Source of the DNA: Arthrobacter alpinus
Lineage (GTDB): Bacteria; Actinomycetota; Actinomycetes; Actinomycetales; Micrococcaceae
Length of the DNA stretch: 64,000 bases
NCBI RefSeq assembly: GCF_001445575.1
Contig: NZ_CP013200.1
Coordinates: 248,001 to 312,000 of the forward strand
Direction of reading: 5' to 3'
Position 1 is the first letter of the stretch. Every line of letters begins with the position of its first letter. The position numbers and the translations under genes were made by a program. The notes beneath the pieces are model-generated. The model was not told the DNA's origin, made no database searches, and saw only the letters and a program-made list of their open reading frames with translations. This document shows positions 34,612 to 54,680 of the stretch, piece after piece.

Positions 34612-35871
34612 CTAGCGCAACGGATTAAAGTGGCGCATGGTGGCTGGCGGAGTGTTTCCCGTCAGCCCGGCCGCGACCATTTTTCCGGTGAGCGGGCCCA
34701 GCGCGATCCCCCACATGCCGTGACCGCCGGCAACATGGACGCGAGGGGAACGGGTGGCCCCCACCAGCGGGAAACCGTCAGTGGTGCAGGGCCGTGAGCC
34801 GACCCATTCCTCGGCACGGTCCTCCCAGTTGATGCCCGTAAACATGGGTGAGGCTGCCTCCACAATGGCCTTGATGCGCCTCGGGTCCAGGGGTGCGTCG
34901 GCGTTGCGGAACTCCATCATGCCCGCCACCCGAAACCTGTCCCCGAGCGGCGTGCAGGCAACCCGCTGCGCCGGGAAGTAGATGGGATGGCTGGGCATGG
35001 CCTCGGGAACCACTGTGAAACTATAGCCGCGCCCTGCCTGCACCACGCGTTTAACGCCGAACTTGCGGGCGAGGGTCCCCAGCCAGGCACCCGTGGCAAG
35101 GACGACGGCGTCGGCCTTGAGCAAGCGCCCTTCCGAGCCAATTACATCAACCCCCGTGCCGGTGTCGCGGACGTCAAACACCGTGAATGCGGTGGTCAGA
35201 GTGGCGCCACGGGCCACCACGGTTTCGGCCAGTGAGGCCATGAAGGCCGGAGGGTCGATGAAGCGCTGTTTAGCAATTGCGATGCCGGCAACAACACCGG
35301 CCCCCAGCGTTGGTTCGAGCTGGCGAATCTCAGCGCCACTCAGGAGGTTGAAGTCCACCTCGCCACCGGTTTCCCGGATGACGTGAAATTCCTTGACCAG
35401 GGCGTCGCGGTCCTTCAGCGACGCGAAGCCGGTCAAGAACGGCTGCGCAGGGTGGGTCTTCTCGGCCACTACCGGAGTTCCTGCGGCCAGCTCGTCAAAG
35501 GCGTCCATGCCGGTGCGGCCAATCTCGGCGAACACGGTCATGGCGGCCCGCCACTTGCCTGGCGTGCAGTTGCGGGCAAACCCCAGTAGGAATTTAAGAA
35601 GCGTCGGGTCGGTGGAGAACGGGACATATAAAGGAGAGGCCGGATCGAGCATGGCCTTGAGCCCGTACGTCAGCACGGACGGTTCACTCAGGGGCAGGGT
35701 CAGCGCCGGGGTCAGCCAGCCGGCGTTGCCCCAGGACGATCCCGAGGCTACCTCGCCGCGGTCAACCACCGTGACCTTGATACCCTGCTCCTGCAAGTAC
35801 CAGGCGGTGGATAATCCAATGATTCCCGCACCAACAACAACCACATGCTCAGGCGCCTTTGCACTGACCAC
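34612..35871 (-). CDS. FAD-dependent D-amino-acid dehydrogenase-like (DadA family)
   Basis: A 419-residue DAO-family flavoenzyme. FAD Rossmann: HVVVVGAGIIGLSTAWYLQEQGIKVTVVDR (residues 9-38), followed by GSSWGNAGWLTP, a DadA hallmark. The C-terminal FAD-binding part reads EWVGSRPCTTDGFPLVGATRSPRVHVAGGHGMWGIALGPLTG. DadA oxidatively deaminates D-amino acids to 2-oxo acids and passes electrons to quinone. GTG at 35871 follows AAGGAG. A proline or glycine oxidase role cannot be excluded. It is co-directional with the esterase across 106 bp. Upstream, 35872-36105 shows no gene. Confidence 0.9.
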   Translation of the reverse strand: MVSAKAPEHVVVVGAGIIGLSTAWYLQEQGIKVTVVDRGEVASGSSWGNAGWLTPALTLPLSEPSVLTYGLKAMLDPASPLYVPFSTDPTLLKFLLGFARNCTPGKWRAAMTVFAEIGRTGMDAFDELAAGTPVVAEKTHPAQPFLTGFASLKDRDALVKEFHVIRETGGEVDFNLLSGAEIRQLEPTLGAGVVAGIAIAKQRFIDPPAFMASLAETVVARGATLTTAFTVFDVRDTGTGVDVIGSEGRLLKADAVVLATGAWLGTLARKFGVKRVVQAGRGYSFTVVPEAMPSHPIYFPAQRVACTPLGDRFRVAGMMEFRNADAPLDPRRIKAIVEAASPMFTGINWEDRAEEWVGSRPCTTDGFPLVGATRSPRVHVAGGHGMWGIALGPLTGKMVAAGLTGNTPPATMRHFNPLR

Positions 35872-38598: not shown

Positions 38599-39348
38599 TT
38601 AGTTTTTGCGCCGTTTAAACGTGGGCAACGCTGGCAAGTTGGACAGCAAGTCAGCCGCCTTGTTCGCAGCCCTGCCTACGCTACGGCTGAATTGTCCTGG
38701 CGCGCCGCCGTCGTTCTCATTCGCCTGAACAACGCCGGACTGCACACTGCCAAACGGCACAACCTCGGCAGGCTTACTTGGGGCCGAGGGAGTCTGCGCC
38801 GCCGGAGTTTCTGGAACTGCGGGAGCCGAACCGTTCGATGCCGGCTCGGCGGAAACTTTCACTGCCTCAGTACGAACAGGTACAGCTGTCTCACCGCTAA
38901 TAGGATCCGAAGCGGCCGTGCTCGGCGCCATGGACACTGGCGCTACAACCAGCGGAGCCGCAGCAACCTCGCGATGCTTAGCAGGCCGGGACGCGACAGC
39001 TGAAGAATCTACGGCTGGCGCCGCAACAGCGGCACCGTTGCGGGCAACCAAAAGTGTAGCGGCACCAGTGGTGGCACCAGTGGTGGCACCGGCCCCGAGG
39101 GACTGCAGCCACGTGGACACCAGGGCAAGCGGCTCAGTGTTAATGCCGTAGTAACGCTTCTGCCCCTGAGCACGCATGGACACCACACCGGCTTCACGAA
39201 GTACTCGCAAATGCTTGGAGACAGTTGGCTGGGAAACCCCGAGCTCGTCCACAAGCTGCCCCACCGATTTACTCTCTTGAGCAAGGGCTTCCAAAAGATC
39301 TCGGCGGGTGCTTTCGGCGATCACCGCAAAGACTTTTTCAACAACCAT
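38599..39348 (-). CDS. ArsR-family regulator with long disordered C-terminal tail
   Basis: A 249-residue protein. Residues 1-80 form an ArsR winged helix (KVFAVIAESTRRDLLEALAQESKSVGQLVDELGVSQPTVSKHLRVLREAGVVSMRAQGQKRYYGI). There is no metal-binding Cys motif, so it is not an ArsR/SmtB metal sensor of the usual kind. The remaining 165 residues are Ala/Pro/Val/Ser-rich and disordered, ending in a short basic conserved-looking block SRSVGRAANKAADLLSNLPALPTFKRRKN. Most ArsR proteins are 90-120 residues. It lies upstream of gdhA on the same strand, about 180 bp away; whether it regulates gdhA is unknown. Confidence 0.85.
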   Translation of the reverse strand: MVVEKVFAVIAESTRRDLLEALAQESKSVGQLVDELGVSQPTVSKHLRVLREAGVVSMRAQGQKRYYGINTEPLALVSTWLQSLGAGATTGATTGAATLLVARNGAAVAAPAVDSSAVASRPAKHREVAAAPLVVAPVSMAPSTAASDPISGETAVPVRTEAVKVSAEPASNGSAPAVPETPAAQTPSAPSKPAEVVPFGSVQSGVVQANENDGGAPGQFSRSVGRAANKAADLLSNLPALPTFKRRKN

Positions 39349-39450
39349 TCCACTACCCTAGCGACATATGCCCGTCACAGCATCTTGAGGGGCCCCGTCT
39401 GAGCAAAAAAGTTGCGGTGGGCTGCCCTGCAACTCTGAGAAATTCCTCTT

Positions 39451-40473
39451 TCAGCGGTGATGTTCCGCCAAAGCTTGGGTCAACGCTGAATATCCGACGG
39501 CGGTGGGGTGAAGTAGTTCTTGTGCCTGAGATTGGTTGCTAGCGGCCTCGAGCAAGCTTGTCGTTCCCGCGGAATGTACCCAAGGATCTGGTGAGCAGAC
39601 GCTGTGACCATCGAGCACTGTCTCGGTGCCTGCAATAAAGGTCAGACGGGCAGCTTCTGGAAGTCCCTCATTGGCCTGCTCAACCGACCGCTGGATTTGG
39701 CTATTAAGTGAGGCCACAACTAACCCGCCAAAGATTCGCTCGGATTCCGCGATCCGCCCGCAATCGTCCCGGCCATGGAGCAGATCCGGGTAGGCCGGGA
39801 TCCAAATCTGTCCAGCCACAGCCTTCCGGAGATCGCGGTACAGCTGCACAAGGGCCGGTCCCAAGCCAGTAATTCTCGTCTGCGTTCCCGCAGCGAGGTC
39901 TGCATCCAGTGAACAATCTGCAACCGCCACGACGCACTGGTCCAGGAGCATTGGGAAGCCAATATCGTTCGCGCCGACAATGACCAAGGTCACATCTGGG
40001 GCGGCGGCATGTAAGCTCTCCAGCTGCGCCGCGGGGGGATTTTCCGTCCACTCACTGGGCGGCTGGGCGTGATAGAAATTGGCGATCTTGGCACGGGAAC
40101 ACGCCATGTTCAACACATTTTCCCGGCCGAACATGGCCAGGCCCAGGCCTCTGGCGCTGCGGTGGCAGCGGTCGTTGCGAAGGTCGGTCCCGGCCAGGTA
40201 GCGCCGGCCGCCTTCGCCTGAGGCAATGGAGTCGCCAGCTAACGCCAATACGGCACCCTCCGCCAGCCCCCAGCCCGCGAGTGACGCGGCGTCAGGCCCC
40301 TCGCGCCCGGTGGTAGGCCCTGGTGTGAGAGCTTCTGAAGTGCCAGGTTCAGGAGCCGCCGCGAGCACCTTGTTCCGCGCCGCGTGACTGGCAGTTCCCC
40401 CGTCGCCGGAGACCGCCACAATGAAAATTGCGCACAGCAGCAACAAAGCTGCCGTGCGCAATTTGTTGATCAT
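39451..40473 (-). CDS. secreted SGNH/GDSL hydrolase, last gene of kinase/exporter operon
   Basis: A 340-residue SGNH-family esterase/lipase-like protein. I start at ATG 40473, overlapping the preceding stop by four bases (ATGA). KLRTAALLLLCAIFIVAVSG is a signal peptide or anchor. The four SGNH blocks are visible: block I ALAGDSIASGEGG (nucleophile Ser), block III VIVGANDIGFP, and block V LLHPTAVGYSALTQALAEHH with the catalytic His; block II falls around MACSRAKIANF. Cysteines C-terminal to block I may form disulfides. SGNH enzymes deacylate lipids, glycans or peptidoglycan. Its coupling to the exporter operon suggests it acts on, or releases, the exported molecule. Confidence 0.88.
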   Translation of the reverse strand: MINKLRTAALLLLCAIFIVAVSGDGGTASHAARNKVLAAAPEPGTSEALTPGPTTGREGPDAASLAGWGLAEGAVLALAGDSIASGEGGRRYLAGTDLRNDRCHRSARGLGLAMFGRENVLNMACSRAKIANFYHAQPPSEWTENPPAAQLESLHAAAPDVTLVIVGANDIGFPMLLDQCVVAVADCSLDADLAAGTQTRITGLGPALVQLYRDLRKAVAGQIWIPAYPDLLHGRDDCGRIAESERIFGGLVVASLNSQIQRSVEQANEGLPEAARLTFIAGTETVLDGHSVCSPDPWVHSAGTTSLLEAASNQSQAQELLHPTAVGYSALTQALAEHHR

Positions 40474-42842
40474 CGTTTCTGCAATGCCTCTGCAACACCA
40501 GGACCGTTGATCCCAGCCAGCCATTCCAACAGTTGCGGGTATGCGGCCGGATTTCCGGCAATCGCTGCATGCAGCCCCGGTTCGGTCGCCGCAAGCTCGT
40601 GCAGGCGGGTAGGGCTGGTGGCGGGGTTCGCCGCCTCCGCCGCCAGCGGATGCACAACCGGCGATTCCGCAAGCTCCGGCGCAGCAACAGGCCGCTGGAC
40701 TGACACCGTCTCACCAATGGAATCCGCCACGGCCGCCTGCAAGGCTTCCAGCGATGTGGATGCCTGCTGGTAAATGGTGGGCTGCGCAGCCGTCGACTGT
40801 ACCGCCAGCCAGTCCCGTAGCCCCTGGTAAGTGGCCGGATTGCTGTTCAGTGCCGCATGGGTCTGCGGATACTGAACAGCCAATTCCTGCAGGCGGATTG
40901 GTGCTGTCGCCGGATTTGCTGCCTCGGCGAGCAACGCAGCCATCACCGAGTCACCCTGAGTCGGCTCCGCAACAACTTCCCGGCGCACCACATTGGTGAC
41001 GGAACTGTCAGCTTCCTCCCCCAACGCGTCGAAAGTTTCCTTTGCGGGCTCCGCTTTCTTGGCAAGCTCGGTTTCCTGGGCAGCTTCCGCTGCGGGAAGT
41101 TCGACGGCGGCCGGCAGGGTTCCCTGCGCTGCCAACCAATCGCTCAGGCCGGGATAGACCGCCGGGTGGACAGCGATGGCGGCATGAGTCTGCGGGAATG
41201 ACGCGGCCAGCTCGTACAACCGGGCTGGCGAGGTAGCCGGATGGGCGGCTTCGGCTAGGATCTGGTCCATATTCACAGCCTGAGCGCCCTGACTATGGGG
41301 CGGGACGCCCTGCTGGGCCGCCGCGACGGGTGCCTGCGGGAATTGCTGACCGGGCACCTGCTGGTGGTAGGCCGCTTGGGCCGGGGATCCGCCGTCGAAG
41401 CTGAATCCTGTGGGGACGGCTGCCGAGGACGGCAACGTGCCAAAGTGCTCACGCATGGCCTTAGGCGCCCAGAGAATGACCCCGATGGCGACGGGGAGCA
41501 CGAAGGCCAAGACCACGGCCGGGGCCATGAGGGTCCATGTGGGGGTGTTTCCGCCAATGATCATCAGGACCAGGTAGAGGACGAACAGCAAGCCCGCGTA
41601 CGCAGTTCCCAGCTGTTGGCCCTGCTTGGTGCCATTCTTCAAGGCAGTCGCAGTAATGAAGAATCCGGCTATAGCCACCACCGAGAACACCAGGGTCAAA
41701 ACCCACGGGACGGCGCTTTCGTTGTAATAGTAGCGCGAGGCGGCATCGCCCATGAGTACGCGGATCAAGTTCACCAAGGACACCGCGGCCATGACCGCCG
41801 CTCCCGCCAGTACCAGCTTCATGGCGGCCATGGCCACGGACTGCCACTTCTGCAACGCTGGTTCCGTGGTGACCAGGCGGCCCAATGAAGGAGCCGCGGC
41901 AATGGCACCAAAGGCCATCCAGAAAACAGCCGTAAATACTGGTGAGGAGCCGTAAAAGCTCGCAGAAACCCGTGCGGGGGCACCCATGGCAATGAAACCA
42001 AGGAGCAGCCCGGCCAAGCCGATGCCCACGCCCACGAATCGCCAGGTCTGGCTCTTCTGCAGGATCTTCAGTGCCACGACAACGAACAATGCCGGGGTGA
42101 TAATTCCCAACAACACGATGGAAACTATGTACAAGGGAGGAATCGCTGAGCCCGAGTTGGCAACAAGAAGCTTCACAATCTGGATCAGCGTGGTCAAGAC
42201 GACAATGCCGGTCAGGGCCAGGAGCGCATACAGCCAGCGCTTGTCCCTGCCGGCGTCCGCCTGCGCGTCGCCTAATTCAGCCTGGCGCGGCGTGGCTGCC
42301 AGCAATGCACCTGCCAGGCCGAAGGCCAGCGCCGTACCAAGTACCCGTGTGCTCAACATTTCCATGATCAGGTAGACCAAGAAGACCACCAGGAACGGGA
42401 CGTTGGCCAGCAGCCGCACGTCCTGCATTTTGCGGTAATTCCATGACGGTCCAAAGACGCCTGCACGCCACACATACGTCAGACCGAGCGAGAGCATACT
42501 GACTATGGTCACCAGCAGCACGTCGATGCGCCCCGCCGCCAGCCCGTTGGCATCGCCATAGACGTTCGCCGAGACACGCCACGGCAGGAACAACGAGATG
42601 ATCAGCAAGGTTAGCGCGATCGCATCCATGGCATAATCGCGCACCGTAATGGCAGCAAAGGGGCTCTTCGCCGGCGCTCCGCCTGCCGGAGCCGCAAACT
42701 GCTGCGGCATGGACTGCTGGGGCGCAAGTTGCTGGGGCTGGGCGGGATACCCCTGACCCGGGTGGGGATTCTGGACGGGCGCCCCTGGCACTGTGCCGGG
42801 GTAGCCCTGTGGGCCGGATTGTTCCGGTGTTGGATAAGTCAT
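40470..42842 (-). CDS. polytopic membrane protein with three variant leucine-rich repeats
   Basis: A 790-residue protein in three parts. Residues 1-58 are a Pro/Gln-rich cytoplasmic tail; about 65-475 hold roughly ten to twelve membrane helices; the C-terminal third is soluble and contains three copies of a 45-50-residue unit, near 522-572, 631-681 and 732-780, each with the pattern LAEAAxPATxPxRLxELAxxxPxxHAAIxxxPxxYPxLxxWLA. This is the variant leucine-rich repeat seen in actinobacterial proteins. AGGAGCTGACAA precedes the ATG. It lies 33 bp after the preceding gene and overlaps the SGNH hydrolase by 4 bp. Function unknown; the repeats look like a protein-docking surface. Confidence 0.85.
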   Translation of the reverse strand: MTYPTPEQSGPQGYPGTVPGAPVQNPHPGQGYPAQPQQLAPQQSMPQQFAAPAGGAPAKSPFAAITVRDYAMDAIALTLLIISLFLPWRVSANVYGDANGLAAGRIDVLLVTIVSMLSLGLTYVWRAGVFGPSWNYRKMQDVRLLANVPFLVVFLVYLIMEMLSTRVLGTALAFGLAGALLAATPRQAELGDAQADAGRDKRWLYALLALTGIVVLTTLIQIVKLLVANSGSAIPPLYIVSIVLLGIITPALFVVVALKILQKSQTWRFVGVGIGLAGLLLGFIAMGAPARVSASFYGSSPVFTAVFWMAFGAIAAAPSLGRLVTTEPALQKWQSVAMAAMKLVLAGAAVMAAVSLVNLIRVLMGDAASRYYYNESAVPWVLTLVFSVVAIAGFFITATALKNGTKQGQQLGTAYAGLLFVLYLVLMIIGGNTPTWTLMAPAVVLAFVLPVAIGVILWAPKAMREHFGTLPSSAAVPTGFSFDGGSPAQAAYHQQVPGQQFPQAPVAAAQQGVPPHSQGAQAVNMDQILAEAAHPATSPARLYELAASFPQTHAAIAVHPAVYPGLSDWLAAQGTLPAAVELPAAEAAQETELAKKAEPAKETFDALGEEADSSVTNVVRREVVAEPTQGDSVMAALLAEAANPATAPIRLQELAVQYPQTHAALNSNPATYQGLRDWLAVQSTAAQPTIYQQASTSLEALQAAVADSIGETVSVQRPVAAPELAESPVVHPLAAEAANPATSPTRLHELAATEPGLHAAIAGNPAAYPQLLEWLAGINGPGVAEALQKR

Positions 42843-42875
42843 TTGTCAGCTCCTAGGTGTTGGCCGTGAGGCCGA

Positions 42876-44930
42876 CTACTTTTTCACGAATTCAAGCTCA
42901 TAGCGGGCACGCGCATCAAATCCAGCCAACGGCCGGGCCACGTTCTGATCCTGCTGTTCACCGACGGAGACGCTCAGATTTACCAGACCATTCTTGGCGG
43001 GCAGCACGATCACATGCTCGACGCCGTCCCCCACGGGGACGGTTTGCTTCTTTCCATCGATCTCAACCACATAGTTTTTGAAGGCGCTGCCGTCGACGCC
43101 GGACATCACCAGCTTGTCAGTGGTGCCCTTAGGGATGTCCAGCTCAAGCATTTCGCTGCCGTCGTTGTAGCTAGTCAATGAACCATTGTATTTAGCGGTG
43201 GAGTGCTCGATGGTGGCTGGTTCCACGTACGTTGCGGGCGTCACCGAAGCCGAGTACGTGACCTTATTTCCCTCCGCGTCGAAAAGTTCCTGCCACTCGT
43301 CGGCGGCAAACAGGACTACCACATAGCTCCCCGGTTTCAACTCAAAGTAGCTGCTGTGCGAAGAGTAGGACGATGAGGATGAGGAATGGGTCTCGTCCTG
43401 CAGGTCTGCCGAGTAAACCGACGCGGAAACACCAGAATCCCCACCACCAAGAATCACATTCTGGGCCGTATCAATCTCCAGAGTCCGCACCGCGTAGCCA
43501 GCCGAGTTAAAAGCAACATCCTCAGCCTTGCCCACCGTCATAGCACCGCTGGGTGCGTCTGTGCGATCGAGGCGCAGCAACGCCAGGGCTTGCTCCTTTG
43601 TCAAGGAATTAAGCCAGGAAATGGCCATATCAGTGGCTGTATCCAACACACTGACCTTCCACTTCCCATCTTCCTTGACAGTGGTCAGCCCAAACTTGCC
43701 ATCAACCGTAAACAGCGACATCGGGTTCGCCGAGGGCGAGCTGTAGTTCTTGGCATAGCCCGAGCCATTGTGGCAGGTCTTATCTCCCTCAGGATCGGAG
43801 AAACAAGAATCGCTGATAGACACCGTGTCGCCGTCAACACTCAAGGAAACATTCTCCACGAACGTCAACGCACGGTTTCCATCCTGCGGGCCCTGCGTAA
43901 AGCTCGAAGCGCCCAGCTTGACCTTCTGCGAACTGCCACCAGCACCTGAGGAATTCCACAAATCCGCATACATGTAAAACGCTGCCGCCTCATCTTTCAC
44001 CAACGACGGCGCCAACAAGGCAGGGTCCGCCCCGTTAACCGCGGAGACAGCATTCCGCACAGCTGCACTGGCAGCTTCCTGCGGAGAATCGCCTCCCGCC
44101 GGGAACTTATCCGGGACCGCTCCCTTGGCAACCATGCCCGAGCTATCCTCGGCCATCATGCTGCCTAATTCCAAGGCACTGAGCATGGGACTCAAGTACC
44201 AACGCCCGTCCGTTTTGGCCGCAATCAACACCAGGCCGTCCTCGTTGGGCCCCAGATCGGGAATGAGGACAGTGTTTTCAATGACGTCTGTCTTGTCTGC
44301 GGCATCCAACGCAGAGCGCAATGCACCCTTAGTCTGATCCGGGTGAATCACAGTGTGCACTTCACCGGAATTGAAGCTGAGCTGTGCAAAGTCTGCCGAA
44401 ATTTCTGTGACGACAGGAGTCACCCCGGAAACCGTAATCTCAACACCATCAAGCACAAATTTCCCGGAATCTGCAGCTTCTGAAACCTCAGGAGAAACCT
44501 TTTTCAAGGCCTCTGCAATACCGAATTCCTTAAACTTGTCCACCACAACCGTCTGCAGTCGCATGACCGAATCCCGTTCATGGGGAGCGATAGTGGTGAA
44601 GAGCCCCACTATGTCCTTGTTATTTACAGACTCGATCAGCTTGATCCCAGCGGCTTCCGGCGACTTCTCGCCACCACGGATGATGTCCTTGACAATGAAC
44701 AGCGCCACCATGGCAGCCACCAGCACCAGAATCACAGCGGAGCCAATAATGACCAGCTTTTTCGACGGACGCCAACCCTTAGCCTTGGGCCCGGGGCTGC
44801 CCGGGGCACCCGGTGCGCTTCCGCCTCCTGCAGGGCCACCCGGCAGACTGCCACCGAATCCTGGCGGCGGCGGTGGCGGAGCACCCGGTACGCCAATGGC
44901 TGGCAACGCTTCTATATTCTGTTCTGACAC
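42876..44930 (-). CDS. large extracytoplasmic protein with single N-terminal anchor
   Basis: A 684-residue protein. I start at GTG 44930, after GGGGGA, because the longer frame to 44966 adds only unlikely residues. Residues 1-60 are Pro/Gly-rich (APPPPPPGFGGSLPGG), a membrane anchor follows (LVIIGSAVILVLVAAMVALFIV, about 65-87), then about 590 residues outside. Two alpha+beta modules of NTF2-like flavour (KLIESVNNKDIVGLFTTIAP; AVRNAVSAVNGADPALLAPSLV) precede beta-rich regions. A Ser-rich segment (SSSSSYSSHSSYF) lies near 540. I do not recognise a named family; the layout resembles TcaA-type proteins. It sits 88 bp after the FHA exporter gene. Confidence 0.8.
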   Translation of the reverse strand: MSEQNIEALPAIGVPGAPPPPPPGFGGSLPGGPAGGGSAPGAPGSPGPKAKGWRPSKKLVIIGSAVILVLVAAMVALFIVKDIIRGGEKSPEAAGIKLIESVNNKDIVGLFTTIAPHERDSVMRLQTVVVDKFKEFGIAEALKKVSPEVSEAADSGKFVLDGVEITVSGVTPVVTEISADFAQLSFNSGEVHTVIHPDQTKGALRSALDAADKTDVIENTVLIPDLGPNEDGLVLIAAKTDGRWYLSPMLSALELGSMMAEDSSGMVAKGAVPDKFPAGGDSPQEAASAAVRNAVSAVNGADPALLAPSLVKDEAAAFYMYADLWNSSGAGGSSQKVKLGASSFTQGPQDGNRALTFVENVSLSVDGDTVSISDSCFSDPEGDKTCHNGSGYAKNYSSPSANPMSLFTVDGKFGLTTVKEDGKWKVSVLDTATDMAISWLNSLTKEQALALLRLDRTDAPSGAMTVGKAEDVAFNSAGYAVRTLEIDTAQNVILGGGDSGVSASVYSADLQDETHSSSSSSYSSHSSYFELKPGSYVVVLFAADEWQELFDAEGNKVTYSASVTPATYVEPATIEHSTAKYNGSLTSYNDGSEMLELDIPKGTTDKLVMSGVDGSAFKNYVVEIDGKKQTVPVGDGVEHVIVLPAKNGLVNLSVSVGEQQDQNVARPLAGFDARARYELEFVKK

Positions 44931-45018
44931 GAGACTACATCCCCCAATTTGAAACAACATCAACATTCACCAGCGGCGCCGGTGAACAGCAAAAAATCTA
45001 AATCCCCCGGAAGGGAAA

Positions 45019-47352
45019 CTACTCCCGGTTTTCAGGCAGCCGGACCAGGCGCAACCACGCTGCGCCAAGATACAGGGCACCGAGCACTACCAATGCGCCA
45101 ACAGCGACGGCCGTCCGCTCGAGCGAATGAGTCCATAACCAATCGTCATCCGCAGCAGCCACCAATGTGGTCAAATCGATGGACTGTGCCCCCATGGCGA
45201 ATCCCCATCTTGTGGGTGAGAACCAGGCGAGCTGTTCCAGCCCGGCCCGGCCCGTGACCGGGATCAACCCGCCCGCCAGCACTAGCTGAGCCATGGCGGT
45301 GATCACCAGGAACGGCATAACCTGTTCGGCTGACTGCACCCATGCGGACATGGCCAGACCCAAGTACGCGCAAACACAAGCTGTTAGCGCTATGGCAACG
45401 AAGATCTCCACACCTGGCAGCCCCCACAACAAGTAATGTTCTGGGGCCGGTTTGCCGGCCAGCACAATAACCGTCATGACCAAGGCTTGAAGCAGGGAGA
45501 TAGCGGTATAAACCACGGCCTTAGCGAGCAGATACGGCCCTGGTCTGAGCCCCACGGCCTTTTCCCGCCGGAAAATCTCCCGCTCCGTGACCAGGTCCTT
45601 GGCAGAAAGTGCCATGCCCATGAAGGCGGCACCAAACACCAACACCACCAACAACTGGTTGGGCTCTCCTGGATCCTCAAGATCTGGGACGCCAAAGCCC
45701 TGGCTGCCCGGGACCACCAGGGCCAGGACCCCCAGCACCAGTGGCAGCAGGCTCAAAAAGGCGAAGTAGCCCTTATCTGCCCACAGCAGCCGCAGCTGCC
45801 GAGCCATGATGGCCCGGAACTGCCGTCCTCTGGAGCTGGCGCCTGCAGTCTTGGCCGTTGTCCCGAACCCGGACGCGGCAACACCACGAGGCCTGTCATT
45901 GCCGTTTCCGGAACGGGCAGCTAATCGTGGTGTGCTGGCCCGGAACCGGGCATAAAGTTCCTGCGGCCAGTCAGATGCCTGCTTGAATACGCCAGCCCAA
46001 TTGGCGGCTTGAAAATCCGAGAGGATGCTCCCTGGCCGACCAAAATAGGCTGTGACTCCGCCCTTGGCCAACAGCAACACCTTGTCGCAGACATCCAGAT
46101 TGGCCACATTGTGCGTCACCACAACCACCACGCGCCCGGCATTCGCCAGCAACCGCAAGGTATCCATGACTTGTTTGTCCATGGCCGGATCCAGCCCTGA
46201 AGTTGGCTCGTCCAAAATCAGCAGGGCCGGTTCGGTCAGCAGCTCCATCGCTACGGAGGCGCGTTTACGCTGCCCGCCGGAAAGCTTGCTGACCTTGGTG
46301 TCGGCTTGTTCCTGCAGGTCCAGCTGGTCCAGCACCCGGGAGATCTGCGCCTGGCGTTCAGCCCTGCTGGTATCGGCAGGCAGCCTCAGCCTGGACGAGT
46401 ATTCCAGGGCGGCACGGATAGTCAGGGACTTGTGGAGAATGTCATCCTGCGGCACAAATCCGATGCGGGTGCGCAGCGCGGCATGGTTTTCCACAATGTC
46501 CTGGTGGTCAAAGTACACCGAGCCCGACGACGGCGCCTTGGCCCCGGTCAGCACGTTCATCAGGGTGGACTTTCCCGCTCCGGAAGGCCCAATAACGGCC
46601 ACCAGCTGCCCGTGCCGGGCTTCGAATTCCACATCACTGAGAAGTGCCTTGTTGCCTCGCCCGTCCTTGACGGTGAAACCCACCGCTTCGAGCCGCAGGC
46701 CTTGCTCGTCCTGCACCGGGAACAGCGCAACGGCAGCACCATCCCACCCAATTTCGAGGTCGGTGTTGCCCACGGTGAGCCTGTCACCCTGCCATACTTC
46801 TGCCGCACCCAGCACCCGTATGCCGTTGACAAAGGTGCCGTTCAGGCTTGCCAGATCCGTAATAACAAGGCGGTTCGGGGAAACATGCAGCTCAGCATGA
46901 TTCCGCGAGGCCAACACATCGCCAACCACCACCGCATTTTCCAGACCGCGGCCCACCCCTAGGGCGTATTCGGGCCCACGCGGCAAGGAATATCCGGTCT
47001 TGGACGGCAGTAAAGTTGCGGCTTGCTCGGGAAGGTGCGGCAACAGTTTAAGGGAAGGGGCGCCGCCGTCCGGGTCGCCCAGGAAAATCAGGGTTTCGCG
47101 GTCAATCCTGCCCTGAGACACCCGCTGTCCACCCAGCCACAGGCCACCGGCACTGTTTTCATCCTGAAGCCACCAGCCCCCGTCGGGCCCTTCAATAAAG
47201 GAAAGGGACGCGTGAATGCGTGAAACATCGGGGCTGGACACCAGGATGTCAGCATCGGCGCCACGCCCAATAACCGTTTGCCGCCCCGGAAGGAGGTTCC
47301 AGGACCGCAGCCCGATCGTCACGTGCAGAACGGTTCCAGCAGCTGCCGTCAC
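45019..47352 (-). CDS. double-FHA ABC-2 exporter (Rv1747-like)
   Basis: A 777-residue fusion protein. FHA 1 spans about 8-100 (TVIGRGADADILVSSPDVSRIHASL), FHA 2 about 125-200 (LASRNHAEL, then SLNGTFVNG, the canonical phosphothreonine-binding signature), then an ABC ATPase about 215-450 (GPSGAGKST, LSGGQRKRASVAMELL, DEPTSGLD), and an ABC-2 membrane domain of six helices about 535-765. This is the layout of M. tuberculosis Rv1747, which is phosphorylated by PknF, encoded next to it, and exports phosphatidylinositol mannosides. I use GTG 47352, which overlaps the kinase stop by four bases (GTGA); the longer frame runs inside the kinase gene. The kinase probably controls it through FHA docking. 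Confidence 0.92.
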   Translation of the reverse strand: MTAAAGTVLHVTIGLRSWNLLPGRQTVIGRGADADILVSSPDVSRIHASLSFIEGPDGGWWLQDENSAGGLWLGGQRVSQGRIDRETLIFLGDPDGGAPSLKLLPHLPEQAATLLPSKTGYSLPRGPEYALGVGRGLENAVVVGDVLASRNHAELHVSPNRLVITDLASLNGTFVNGIRVLGAAEVWQGDRLTVGNTDLEIGWDGAAVALFPVQDEQGLRLEAVGFTVKDGRGNKALLSDVEFEARHGQLVAVIGPSGAGKSTLMNVLTGAKAPSSGSVYFDHQDIVENHAALRTRIGFVPQDDILHKSLTIRAALEYSSRLRLPADTSRAERQAQISRVLDQLDLQEQADTKVSKLSGGQRKRASVAMELLTEPALLILDEPTSGLDPAMDKQVMDTLRLLANAGRVVVVVTHNVANLDVCDKVLLLAKGGVTAYFGRPGSILSDFQAANWAGVFKQASDWPQELYARFRASTPRLAARSGNGNDRPRGVAASGFGTTAKTAGASSRGRQFRAIMARQLRLLWADKGYFAFLSLLPLVLGVLALVVPGSQGFGVPDLEDPGEPNQLLVVLVFGAAFMGMALSAKDLVTEREIFRREKAVGLRPGPYLLAKAVVYTAISLLQALVMTVIVLAGKPAPEHYLLWGLPGVEIFVAIALTACVCAYLGLAMSAWVQSAEQVMPFLVITAMAQLVLAGGLIPVTGRAGLEQLAWFSPTRWGFAMGAQSIDLTTLVAAADDDWLWTHSLERTAVAVGALVVLGALYLGAAWLRLVRLPENRE

Positions 47353-49331
47353 GGAGCGGGGCTCTCGACGGGAACCTTGCCGGGGATGCCCTGCAGCTTG
47401 GCATCGCCCAGGGCCAGCTCCGTGCTGCCTGAGTAGTCGTCCTTGGCGCAGGTGGTTTCCTGCCATTGGATCTTCATGCGCAGCACGCCACTCATGTCAG
47501 CCGTCACCGCAAAGGGCTTGCCGTAGGTGATGGTTTGGGTGGAAACCTGGCGGCCGTCGGCAAAAACCTCCAGCAGCACCACGGCGGCGCTGTCGCTGGC
47601 ATCGTCAACAATGCCGGCGGTTGCCGTAAATGACTCGTAGTTCCGGCCCAGGTTGTACTCTACGGTTGCTCCGGAAGAGCCGGAGCAGAGCCGCGACGCG
47701 ACTGCGTGGGGGTAGCTCTGACCGGAAATCAGGACGGCTCCGGAATCACTCCACCCGCCGGCCACGGGCTTCAGATCGTCAAGGTAGGAGATGACAGCGG
47801 AGCGCGCCACCGTCAGCTCAACTTCGGAGGGGGTGAACCAGCCGGCCTCCGGAATCTGGGACAGCACCGTGCCGTCGGGAACCGAGGTGTCGTACTTGTC
47901 CACAATCAGAGTGGTGACTCGTTCGCCTTCAGCCGTGGTGAGCGTGGCGATCGCCTGCTGCGCCTCGGACACGGTCTTGCCGGTGTAGTCGGGCAGATCA
48001 TCTAGAGCCGGGGTAGCTTCGCCGCTAGCTTCGGCGCTCACTTCCGGGGTTACGTCCTGGGTTGCTTCCGGGGCATTATCTGCACTCGGAGCAGCAGTGG
48101 ATGGGTCCGCGGGCAGGACCTTGGCCTCGTTACTTCCTTTGTCGGCACCCAGCAGGTTCACGGCCACCAGGGAGCCGCCGCCTAGCAGAAGCACGGCAAG
48201 TAAGGACAGTAGGAGGGTCCACTTGCCCTTACCTGACTTTTTGCCTGCTGCAGAGGGTTCCGGGCTGCGCGGCGCGGAGAAGGCGACAGCCGGAGGGGCG
48301 GGCGGGAACGACATACTCTGCTGGGGTCCGGAAGTGTTCATCCCGGCTTGTGGCAGGGACGTTAGATCGTCGGTACCGCCAGTGGGGATACCAAGAGGGA
48401 AGGCCACGGCCTGAGTGGCCTGGGTTTCGAGACTCGGGAGCGGGGCTGGCGGCTCCGTCAGCCGGGGCGCGGGCGGGTAGCTCTGTAACGACGGTGCCAA
48501 GGCATCCAGGATGGTGGCCACTTGACGGGCGCTGGGCGGGCGCTGGGCGGGATTTTTGGCCAGCAGCCAGCTGATCAAATCCCACAGTTCATCGGGGATG
48601 CCCGCCGGCCGGCCCGGGCTGACGGAGCTGTGCCGCCGCAGCACAGCCATGACCGATCCGCCAGCGAAGGGGGTGATCCCGGAAGCCAGCTCATACAGCA
48701 CTATGCCCAATGCATACAGGTCAGAGGCGGCGGTGATGGTACCGCCCTCGCTGGCTTCAGGAGCAATATACTGCGGCGTCCCCACCAGCATGGTGCTGCG
48801 GGCACGTTCGGCATCAACAAGGGAGGAGACACCAAAATCGGTGACCTTGGGCACCAGAACACCATCAATCGTGGAAATCAGGATGTTCTCGGGCTTGATG
48901 TCCCGGTGAATGATGTTGGCTTCATGGACTATGGCGAGTCCATTGGCGATCCCGGCACCGATATGACAAACCTGGGCAGGTGTCAGCGTTCCGTACCGGT
49001 TCAGGTGCGCCCGCAGGTCGGCACCCTCCACGAGTTCCATGGCGATGGCCAGCGTCTGCCCTTCAACCACAAGATCCACAACCCTCACCAGGTTGGGTCC
49101 ACTGACCGACAGCAGGATGCTGCGTTCCTGAACAAAACGGGCGACTACTTGGGGGTCCCCTGCCATGTCAGGGTGCAGCAGCTTAAAGGCAAGCTCTTTG
49201 CCGGCATCGTCATGGCCGCGAAAAACCTCGCCCATGGCGCCGCGCCCTATGCTCTCCTGCAGAATGTACTTGCTACCCAGCTGCCGTGCCAATAGGAACT
49301 CCCCCAAGTGTGAATTCTTTGGCATGCCCAT
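47349..49331 (-). CDS. receptor Ser/Thr protein kinase with PASTA and NPCBM-like ectodomains
   Basis: A 660-residue PknB-type kinase. Catalytic domain about 20-285: glycine loop GRGAMGEV, ELAFKLL (lysine), IIHRDIKPEN, VTDFGVSS, YIAPEA. A Pro-rich juxtamembrane linker precedes a single membrane helix (WTLLLSLLAVLLLGGGSLVAVNLL, about 372-395). Outside lie a Thr/Ala/Pro linker, one PASTA-like domain about 447-510 (PDYTGKTVSEAQQAI to EVELTVA), and a C-terminal module about 515-650 beginning YLDDLKPVAGGW and containing YNLGRNYESFTATAGIVDD and VFADGRQVS, the pattern of an NPCBM/NEW2 carbohydrate-binding-like domain. All catalytic residues are present. First gene of a five-gene convoy; its stop overlaps the exporter start. 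Confidence 0.93.
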   Translation of the reverse strand: MGMPKNSHLGEFLLARQLGSKYILQESIGRGAMGEVFRGHDDAGKELAFKLLHPDMAGDPQVVARFVQERSILLSVSGPNLVRVVDLVVEGQTLAIAMELVEGADLRAHLNRYGTLTPAQVCHIGAGIANGLAIVHEANIIHRDIKPENILISTIDGVLVPKVTDFGVSSLVDAERARSTMLVGTPQYIAPEASEGGTITAASDLYALGIVLYELASGITPFAGGSVMAVLRRHSSVSPGRPAGIPDELWDLISWLLAKNPAQRPPSARQVATILDALAPSLQSYPPAPRLTEPPAPLPSLETQATQAVAFPLGIPTGGTDDLTSLPQAGMNTSGPQQSMSFPPAPPAVAFSAPRSPEPSAAGKKSGKGKWTLLLSLLAVLLLGGGSLVAVNLLGADKGSNEAKVLPADPSTAAPSADNAPEATQDVTPEVSAEASGEATPALDDLPDYTGKTVSEAQQAIATLTTAEGERVTTLIVDKYDTSVPDGTVLSQIPEAGWFTPSEVELTVARSAVISYLDDLKPVAGGWSDSGAVLISGQSYPHAVASRLCSGSSGATVEYNLGRNYESFTATAGIVDDASDSAAVVLLEVFADGRQVSTQTITYGKPFAVTADMSGVLRMKIQWQETTCAKDDYSGSTELALGDAKLQGIPGKVPVESPAP

Positions 49332-49492
49332 AAGGCGAAGGCCTGAACCTCACGCGCACTCCAAAACGAAAGACTTTATAGCGGAATCCAAGAAGAGGTC
49401 CGCAGCGCCGGACGAGCCAGCTTTCTTATCATAGGCGACTGGGAACTTTCACTGACCCAATGCAGCGACTGCTAGCTGCCGAAAAGTTGCTC

Positions 49493-52886: not shown

Positions 52887-52936
52887 CCTCACGTTTTTGG
52901 CACGGCGTGCGTCTACTGGGCAGGAGGTGTTTTTCA

Positions 52937-53446
52937 ATGATTAGGCATTCGGTTTTTGACTCGCCGTTGGGTCCCCTGACCGCTGTGGAGAACGACGCCG
53001 GCCTGGCGGCTGTGTACATGGCGGAACATAAGCGCCGCCCGGCTTGGGAGACGTTGGGTGAGCAGGTTACGGCGTCTGCCTCGCCTGTGCTGGCTGCGAC
53101 GGCTGAACAGCTGGGCGAGTATTTTTCTCATGGACGGCGGGAGTTTTCGCTGCCGCTAGCCCCGGCGGGGAGCGATTTCCAGCACCGGGTCTGGGCTGCG
53201 CTGCGGGACATCCCGTACGGTGAGCTGCGCAGCTACGGTGCCCTGGCCGCGATGCTGGGCGATCCGTCCATGGCGCAAGCTGTGGGCTCGGCAAACGGCC
53301 GCAACCCCATCAGCATCATTGTGCCCTGCCACCGCGTGGTGGGCTCCGACGGCTCACTGACGGGTTACGCAGGCGGGCTCGAGCGCAAGCAGTTTTTGCT
53401 GGAGCTGGAGAACCCGTCCCGAACCCATACTGAGGCACTTTTCTAA
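52937..53446 (+). CDS. ogt: methylated-DNA--protein-cysteine methyltransferase (Ogt), copy 1
   Basis: A 169-residue O6-alkylguanine-DNA alkyltransferase. FQHRVWAALRDIPYGELRSYGALAAMLG is the DNA-binding HTH region and SIIVPCHRVVGSDGSLTGYAGG contains the acceptor cysteine PCHRV. It transfers the alkyl group to that cysteine and is consumed. ATG 52937 follows AGGAGGTG. Its stop shares a base with the start of a sigma-factor gene (TAATG), whose other neighbour is a second alkyltransferase, so the three are one translationally coupled unit. Confidence 0.95.
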   Translation: MIRHSVFDSPLGPLTAVENDAGLAAVYMAEHKRRPAWETLGEQVTASASPVLAATAEQLGEYFSHGRREFSLPLAPAGSDFQHRVWAALRDIPYGELRSYGALAAMLGDPSMAQAVGSANGRNPISIIVPCHRVVGSDGSLTGYAGGLERKQFLLELENPSRTHTEALF

Positions 53447-54069
53447 TGCCCGCTCCCAGCGACGCTGCTGCGGTAATTCCTGAACAGATCGGCAAAGCAT
53501 TACCGCCTTTCGAGGTCCTCATCACCCATCATGGCGCCGCAGTATTGCGCGTGTGCCGTGCGCTGGTCGGCCCCGTGGATGCCGACGATGTCTGGCAGGA
53601 AACATTTTTGGCAGCCTTACGCGTCTACCCGAGCACCGGAATCATCCGCAATAGGGAGGCCTGGCTGGTAACGATCGCCCACAACAAGGCAATCGACCAC
53701 CACCGGAAAGCGGCACGGCTTCCGTTACCCGCCAGCGGGCCGGGAGTTGGCGAGCACGCTCTGGACGAGCACACAGTGGGCGAACACGGCGTGGACGAGC
53801 ACGGCATTGGCGGGACCGGGAGCGGCGGAGGGGACGTCGTCGTCCGTTCCGTGGAGGCAGGGGAAACGGCTGCTGCCGTGTGGACGGCGCTGGCCACCCT
53901 GGCACCAATGCAGCGTGAAGCTGTTGTTTATCATCACTTAGCCGGGCTGCGATATGCCGAGGTGGCAGGGATTTTGGGCAATTCCGAAGCAGCTGCGCGC
54001 AGGGCAGCTGCGGACGGCATGAGGGCGCTCCGGGCGCTGCTGGACCATGAAAGGACGCAGAAGCAATGA
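53446..54069 (+). CDS. ECF-like sigma factor in an alkylation-repair operon
   Basis: A 207-residue sigma-70-family protein. Region 2: ITHHGAAVLRVCRALVGPVDADDVWQETFLAALRVYP, then NREAWLVTIAHNKAIDHHRKAAR. Region 4: LAPMQREAVVYHHLAGLRYAEVAGILGNSEAAARRAAADGMRALRALL. The linker (about 100-125) is a low-complexity run of GEH/DEH words. Overlap with both neighbours (TAATG before, ATGA after) shows co-translation with two alkyltransferases. No anti-sigma gene is visible; the extended N-terminus of the downstream alkyltransferase is the only candidate controller. I infer that it directs an alkylation-stress response. Confidence 0.9.
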   Translation: MPAPSDAAAVIPEQIGKALPPFEVLITHHGAAVLRVCRALVGPVDADDVWQETFLAALRVYPSTGIIRNREAWLVTIAHNKAIDHHRKAARLPLPASGPGVGEHALDEHTVGEHGVDEHGIGGTGSGGGDVVVRSVEAGETAAAVWTALATLAPMQREAVVYHHLAGLRYAEVAGILGNSEAAARRAAADGMRALRALLDHERTQKQ

Positions 54070-54680
54070 ATACTCTGAAGGTAGCGCGGATGCTCGCCCC
54101 TATCGCTAATGGCGAGGATGCCGCGGTAGTGAATCTGGCCGCACGGTTCACAACCGTCGCATCGGCGCAGGGTCTCGTGGATGTTGCGTATCGGGTGATT
54201 GATTCACCCGTGGGGCCACTGTTGCTGGCGGGAACCGAGGCGGGTCTGGTGCGGGTGGCGTTCGCCGTTGAGGGACACGATTCCGTGCTGGAAGCCCTCT
54301 CCGCTGCCGTCAGCCCACGGATTATGCGCGCCCCGGCACGGCTGGATGCTGCGGCCCGGGAACTCGACGAGTATTTTCACGGGCGCCGGCAACGTTTCGA
54401 TCTGCCGTTGGACTTCCGGCTGGCACAAGGGTTCAGGCGTGAGGTGCTGGACCATCTGCCGGAGATTGGCTACGGGCATACGGCCAGTTATGCGGCAGTG
54501 GCGGCCATGACGTCCAGTCCCCGGGCTGTGCGCGCAGTGGGGACAGCGTGCGCGCGCAATCCGCTCCCTCTTGTGGTGCCCTGTCACCGGGTAATCCGCT
54601 CCGATGGCAGCCAAGGAGCATACTTGGGCGGCGCGGAAGCAAAATCGCTACTGCTCGCTCTGGAAACCGGTGCGAAGTAG
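54066..54680 (+). CDS. methylated-DNA--protein-cysteine methyltransferase, copy 2 with N-terminal extension
   Basis: A 204-residue alkyltransferase. The first 40 residues (MNTLKVARMLAPIANGEDAA onward) are extra compared with copy 1. The ferredoxin-like N-domain starts at VDVAYRVIDSPVGPLLLAGTEAGLVRVAF, then FRREVLDHLPEIGYGHTASYAAVAAM and the active site LPLVVPCHRVIRSDGSQGAYLGG with PCHRV. The two copies are diverged in sequence, so this is not a recent duplication. The extension may contact the sigma factor encoded directly upstream (4-bp overlap), by analogy with gene order only. Confidence 0.93.
   Translation: MNTLKVARMLAPIANGEDAAVVNLAARFTTVASAQGLVDVAYRVIDSPVGPLLLAGTEAGLVRVAFAVEGHDSVLEALSAAVSPRIMRAPARLDAAARELDEYFHGRRQRFDLPLDFRLAQGFRREVLDHLPEIGYGHTASYAAVAAMTSSPRAVRAVGTACARNPLPLVVPCHRVIRSDGSQGAYLGGAEAKSLLLALETGAK

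Follow-up and report, generated by a model that had tools for sequence, protein, structure and literature searches.

The described systems with which the locus reported here is best compared are the PknF–Rv1747 pair of Mycobacterium tuberculosis and the bifidobacterial PFNA operon, both given as the available parts of the source papers present them. PknF and Rv1747 are encoded by a two-gene operon in which the kinase acts positively (PMC3908365). The FHA domains of Rv1747 have been handled as constructs 1–120 and 201–310 (PMC5549992) and are joined by a disordered linker (PMC9312465). The PFNA operon comprises pkb2, fn3, aaa-atp, duf58 and tgm, some examples also containing prpC and fha (PMC8430577). 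Our literature searches, from whose coverage subscription papers were mostly absent, found nothing on PASTA-NPCBM kinases in Actinobacteria, on DUF7937, on actinobacterial membrane leucine rich repeat variant proteins, or on FHA domain, ABC transporter and NPCBM together.

Here we analyse five adjacent genes in a 64,000-nucleotide stretch of Arthrobacter alpinus DNA (the window) that a sequence-only reading had taken for a single export system. We propose, at a probability of about 0.48, that acuC and an arsR-like gene flank two separable, adjacent envelope blocks, with coupling between them plausible. Judged from domains and gene neighbourhoods, block A (kinase and exporter) is most likely a wall-glycan-sensing export pair of the PknF/Rv1747 kind, and block B (g3, g4 and an SGNH hydrolase) most likely a membrane platform, as yet uncharacterised, that includes an esterase.

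Five co-directional genes with two overlapping junctions

An ORF check of the window places all five reading frames co-directionally on the minus strand of the region 39451..49331 (Table 1). The frames and the junction letters agree with the sequence-only reading, which had five leftward genes with overlaps at both ends and gaps of 88 and 33 bp. Kinase and exporter overlap by 4 bp in GTGA (47352/47349) and g4 and the SGNH hydrolase by 4 bp in ATGA (40473/40470), while 88 bp separate exporter from g3 and 33 bp g3 from g4. TTG 49292, preceded by GGGGGAG, is the probable start codon of the kinase and gives 647 aa; the exporter (777 aa) starts at GTG 47352 and g3 (684 aa) at GTG 44930.

Terminator-like hairpins occur at 17 sites across the region compared to 10.6 expected (sd 3.7), two of them in the 88-bp gap, the fold of which is ordinary (z −0.82). 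The region scan found 2 promoter-like sites where 2.9 are expected and so gives no promoter evidence.

Table 1. Features of the five-gene region, in window positions.
Feature	Positions	Strand	Basis
Receptor Ser/Thr kinase (Pkinase, TM, PASTA, NPCBM)	47349..49292	-	Pfam, motifs, hydropathy scan
Double-FHA ABC-2 exporter, order FHA-FHA-NBD-TMD	45019..47352	-	Pfam, motifs, hydropathy scan
88-bp gap parting blocks A and B, two terminator-like hairpins	44931..45018	-	Hairpin scan
g3: Pro-rich cytoplasmic tail, one TM, outside domains	42876..44930	-	Hydropathy scan, structure model
g4: DUF7937 polytopic membrane domain and three LRV_2	40470..42842	-	Pfam, hydropathy scan
SGNH/GDSL hydrolase, secreted or anchored	39451..40473	-	Pfam, motifs
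200-bp gap toward acuC, upstream edge	49293..49492	-	
102-bp gap toward arsR-like gene, downstream edge	39349..39450	-	

Block A: a receptor kinase and an Rv1747-like exporter

In Pfam the kinase contains Pkinase, PASTA and NPCBM. The AFK, HRD, DFG and APE motifs are all present, and a simple hydropathy scan, used for membrane segments throughout, finds one segment at about residues 357–384 of the 647-aa form. The receptor Ser/Thr kinase first read from the letters is thus recovered as Pkinase plus one TM segment, together with PASTA and NPCBM, which were absent from that reading's text. In the available part of PMC8195603, NPCBM-kinase fusions occur in conflict systems and NPCBM fusions are proposed to sense invaders inside the cell. 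A surface-defence or conflict locus with NPCBM sensing invaders, which the patchy presence within the genus (below) would also suit, is nevertheless very improbable here: NPCBM lies past the TM segment and beside PASTA, and the partner families named in that source, TIR, caspase and AP-ATPase, are absent from the Pfam hits listed for the five genes.

The exporter carries two FHA domains, ABC_tran and ABC2_membrane in one chain with six hydropathy segments, in agreement with the double-FHA ABC-2 exporter of the sequence-only reading. The best solved-chain matches of its FHA region are FHA-2 (6cah, E 8.9e-14) and FHA-1 (6ccd, E 1.4e-7) of Rv1747 itself, which supports the analogy drawn there to PknF and Rv1747. 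FHA-2 retains GR/SRNH/SLNGT, with the Arg, Ser, His and Asn-Gly that we take to be the usual FHA residues; FHA-1 has SAGGLW in place of the usual Asn, which is also lost in Arthrobacter ipis.

As in PknF–Rv1747, the kinase gene stands directly upstream of, and co-directional with, a gene for a half-exporter of the ABCG type whose N-terminal part carries two FHA domains. Unlike that pair, the window has a kinase with a PASTA-NPCBM sensor (the comparison covers the window's sensor and not PknF's own), it adds g3, g4 and SGNH genes, and its FHA–FHA linker is much shorter than that of Rv1747, the GR motifs being 105 residues apart (99 in A. ipis). The long linker is a trait of Rv1747 itself and not necessarily one that defines the family. 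As for cargo, the sequence-only reading held that a mannosylated phospholipid is exported under the control of kinase–FHA docking. This wording exceeds the published link of Rv1747 to PIMs, for which the available part of the source offers an altered level in a mutant plus a proposal rather than demonstrated transport (PMC5549992).

Exporter relatives at E<=1e-100 were found in 7/149 family genomes (one is the window's own; A. ipis shows 61% identity, the others 37–42%) by a search that scored the best 4 to 8 candidates per genome and leaves absence soft. Ten plasmid records hold relatives at E<=1e-80 with 33–49% identity. Three of these were opened: a kinase is annotated in the stretch, not directly upstream, in two, and none is annotated in the third, the gene table used being incomplete.

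Recurrence of the kinase–exporter pair

Complete pairs of a PASTA-NPCBM kinase and an FHA exporter occur in the window, in A. ipis (L020) and at L197, L205 and L208. Outside the window they recur in A. ipis and three other families, and the linkage of kinase and exporter claimed by the sequence-only reading is borne out. The pair junction is a 4-bp overlap in the window, L020 and L197 and a 6-bp gap in L205. PASTA, NPCBM and FHA are confirmed by Pfam in the window, L197, L205 and L194, the last of which has a PASTA-NPCBM kinase adjoining an FHA piece only; L020 and L208 were assigned by in-house profiles, L020 being among the sequences that built them. At L143 and L148 kinase–FHA exporter pairs occur without a PASTA-NPCBM match. 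Weak g3 matches near the kinase–exporter pairs in L194 and L197 were dropped, Pfam giving PQQ_2 there (one of the three PQQ_2 matches slightly below its cut-off).

When the PASTA-NPCBM portion of the kinase was searched against 4182 candidate proteins similar to kinases in length, 33 matched at E<=1e-5, one of them the window's own. Kinase and NPCBM domains are present in every one of the 33, and the few that are named are mostly from Arthrobacter or Pseudarthrobacter. We sampled the neighbourhoods of PASTA-NPCBM matches in 22 genomes, 12 with matches over 100 bits and 10 further ones at E<=1e-20, counting one of the two places in G385. The sample was not blind, since window and A. ipis sequences supplied the profiles for kinase, exporter and SGNH and profile A3 includes members found near g4; the genome searches scored the best 4 to 8 candidates per genome, which leaves absence soft here too. 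The module is fused to a kinase in 12/22 sampled genomes (L207 judged by eye). Five of these places adjoin a complete exporter, one (L194) the FHA piece, and six no exporter, and because of these six our confidence in the two-block reading is slightly lowered. Among the 10 places without kinase fusion, 4 adjoin SGNH, some contigs being short (L198, L200, L201).

In other actinomycetes PASTA-NPCBM proteins likewise adjoin SGNH (L124, L195, L200, L213, L214); unlike the window kinase, they have no kinase domain. SGNH is accompanied by VWA in the four Pfam-scanned loci L124, L195, L200 and L213, with a GDSL score below cut-off in L200.

Block B: g3, g4 and an SGNH hydrolase

No Pfam family exceeds its cut-off in g3. 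A single hydropathy segment at about residues 55–87 fits the single-anchor, 684-residue extracytoplasmic protein described before, and in a structure model the outside part comprises two NTF2-like-looking domains and two beta-sandwiches, for which fold searches gave weak domain matches only. The polytopic protein with three variant leucine-rich repeats is recognisable in g4 as DUF7937 (232.8 bits, cut-off 31) and three LRV_2 (154.1 bits, cut-off 27) with twelve hydropathy segments, some overlapping; the best PDB hit in its fold search had E 0.97, outside the threshold of E<=0.001. The third protein scores 37.2 bits for Lipase_GDSL_2 (cut-off 32.9) and has the GDS, GxND and His-Pro-Thr motifs and one N-terminal hydropathy segment, so that the secreted SGNH hydrolase of the sequence-only reading holds, as either a secreted or an anchored protein. 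Its nearest solved structures, in weak and partial matches, are phospholipase A1 4hyq (E 1.3e-4) and lipase 5mal (E 2.5e-3), which are presumably of Streptomyces type.

An earlier scan of named genomes with the g4 sequence alone found no relative; a scan with a g4 profile found them, giving 79 loci from the best 80 of 103 matches. Strong g4 matches, over 200 bits, number 61 named loci among the matches listed, some with short flanks. Within these best 80 of 103 matches, g3 lies within 3 kb of strong g4 at 24/61 loci, SGNH within 6 kb at 7/61, all named Arthrobacter, and a PASTA-NPCBM match within 6 kb at 8/61, with a kinase of the window's type within 8 kb at 2/61 and an exporter at 1/61. The link of SGNH to g3–g4 made by the sequence-only reading is accordingly seen in Arthrobacter loci. 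Four weaker g4 loci in Williamsia likewise have g3 adjoining, and the g3–g4 pairing is found across Actinomycetes; g4 has no match in 72,556 plasmid records.

In 297 genomes of the order, g3 was found in 48 (E<=1e-5, many of the matches weak) and g4 in 42 (E<=1e-8), the best 4 to 8 candidates per genome being scored and absence again soft. Both were found in 10, little above a chance expectation of 6.8. The two matches lie within 1.5 kb of each other in 8 of these genomes and on separate contigs in the other two. Since the strict co-occurrence test gave little, the case for a g3–g4 link rests on adjacency. The g3 and g4 trees are similar in outline.

Some g3 relatives (L069, L110) likewise end in an LRV_2 tail, as do PASTA-NPCBM proteins (L110, L200), and others begin with zinc-ribbon matches, some below cut-off. 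From these arrangements LRV_2 tails and zinc-ribbon starts may be suggested to serve as a common cytoplasmic adaptor. In Cryobacterium (L110), g3–g4 lies downstream of genes that by eye look like MoxR, DUF58, TgpA, FHA and PP2C, a likeness to the PFNA operon, which in the available part of its description also combines a species-variable kinase with envelope partners and, in some species, an FHA protein. Unlike that operon, the five genes of the window give no MoxR, DUF58, transglutaminase or FN3 among their Pfam hits, a comparison made by Pfam for the five genes and by eye for the flanking ones.

How the blocks are joined

A. ipis holds all five genes at one locus, with 4-bp overlaps at the window's two overlap junctions. 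There kinase–exporter lies on one strand and g3–g4–SGNH on the other, the blocks facing each other with 804 bp between. Because block A faces block B at this point, the A. ipis break point corresponds to the window's 88-bp gap. In both the g3 and g4 trees the window groups with environmental sequences and A. ipis is not its sister, the fork being open.

An exporter relative (E<=1e-50) is missing in 10/12 g3–g4 genomes, the two with it being A. ipis and a Williamsia, and a PASTA-NPCBM match (E<=1e-10) in 13/15, a set counted apart from A. ipis in which the two with it are a Williamsia and Hoyosella. Block B therefore usually exists apart from block A. These counts argue against one obligate five-component export machine, in which the SGNH hydrolase would act on the exported product and g3 and g4 would be structural, as does the varying order in A. 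ipis and at the genus sites (below). The overlaps, the shared direction and the presence of the five genes together in two genera speak for such a machine, which we nonetheless consider improbable.

The same counts, the six kinase places without an exporter and the terminator-like hairpins between the blocks would also suit two independent systems in a shared insertion-prone site, A and B being functionally uncoupled. We regard this as a real possibility, although all five genes are also together, differently arranged, in A. ipis, and Hoyosella (L111) has a row of ABC ATPase, permease, g3, g4, a further gene and a PASTA-NPCBM kinase (its PASTA match below cut-off). Matches to kinase, g3 and g4 moreover share one contig size of 15051 bases, as do those to kinase and g4 at 34694, a hint of further joint loci that likewise speaks against independence.

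The site within the genus bears on the same question. acuC is present in 23/23 same-genus genomes. Apart from the window's own genome these number 22, and the site was opened in all of them but G004 and G011, giving 20. ktrA-ktrB-acuC and then gdhA are found at all 20, and the arsR-like gene at 19/20 (not found by that test in G012). The sequence-only reading had looked to gene order conserved beyond close relatives, and this failed: none of the five genes is at the site in 19/20 opened genomes, kinase and exporter matches being counted only at >=40% identity, and G014 has g4 alone (52% identity over 540 aligned columns). Over the whole genomes g3 is found in 1/23 and absent from 22/23. Since the sites are mostly empty and the flanking genes, the arsR-like one excepted, are 75–98% identical across opened sites compared to 52% for g4 of G014, the stretch between acuC and the arsR-like gene is either an insertion or a cassette that has been lost repeatedly. 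The empty sites, with g4 alone at one, again favour independence of the blocks.

Of the five genes as one system, then, what stands is their presence together in the window and A. ipis; what does not is their unity, the blocks usually being apart and in A. ipis facing each other. Because g3–g4 and kinase–exporter each recur elsewhere, the pairs exceed a chance arrangement, and the five genes in a row look less like a single fixed machine than like two systems that have been joined.

A possible mechanism and its meaning

In the preferred reading of two coupled blocks, the outside domains of the kinase would read the wall, PASTA binding muropeptide or lipid II and NPCBM glycan, and the kinase would phosphorylate itself, the exporter or both. 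In the ABCG-type half-exporter FHA-2, which is intact, may then dock on phosphothreonine, so that an envelope (glyco)lipid or polymer unit would be exported according to wall state. g4 may serve as a hub in the membrane, its LRV_2 tail in the cytoplasm, and g3 as an anchored scaffold outside the cell, near which the SGNH enzyme would cleave ester-linked acyl groups on the envelope product, both blocks here acting on one product. The exported substrate and the deacylation or acylation step are guesses.

More broadly, the window may be a rare all-parts form of an undescribed modular envelope system in Actinomycetes, with a g3–g4 platform, interchangeable PASTA-NPCBM sensors, SGNH/VWA enzymes and a kinase often accompanied by a phospho-gated FHA exporter, a generalisation we hold to be rather unlikely as it stands. 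In such a system the PASTA-NPCBM sensors would be fused to a kinase in some proteins and to LRV_2/zinc-ribbon tails in others.

Rv1747-type exporters matter for the cell wall, and neither what they carry nor what triggers them is settled. The one in the window has as its partner a kinase with outside domains that point to a class of ligand, wall glycan and muropeptide, and it adjoins a predicted esterase and two envelope proteins that are conserved but unstudied, which makes sensor, docking and cargo directly testable. The DUF7937 and LRV_2 proteins, in turn, gain a genomic context.

PASTA-NPCBM, the outside sensor module of the window's kinase, also occurs in proteins without a kinase domain, and at loci L195, L200, L213, L214 and L124 in other genomes a VWA-SGNH or SGNH protein is encoded immediately after such a protein. 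By their coordinates, the two genes overlap by 4 bp in L124, L200 and L213.

Another Micrococcaceae kinase/FHA-exporter unit is found at two loci (table below), with a similar gene for a secreted-looking protein upstream of the unit in both.

Further kinase/FHA-exporter units of Micrococcaceae
Locus	Coordinates
L143	2027-7719
L148	6352-11931

Elsewhere in the window (52907-54680), a sigma-factor-like gene appears by eye to have an alkyltransferase-like gene on either side (n=2).

No g3, the single-anchor gene, lies within reach of g4 (DUF7937+LRV_2) in Oerskovia, Cellulosimicrobium, Haloactinopolyspora and relatives (L071, L073, L089, L108, L115 and others); nearby is at least one gene resembling PhoH, YbeY, CorC or Era, labels judged by eye. 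At the window's own site, a shorter g4 of 513 aa is the only one of the five genes between acuC and the arsR-like gene in the same-genus genome G014 (L181, 10203-11696), either as a relic or through independent arrival.

The arsR-like gene itself (window 38599-39348) is matched over its full length at 41-57% in 11 of the 19 same-genus genomes having it, and in 8 the match is confined to 84-94 well-kept residues; the gene has one conserved and one fast-changing part.
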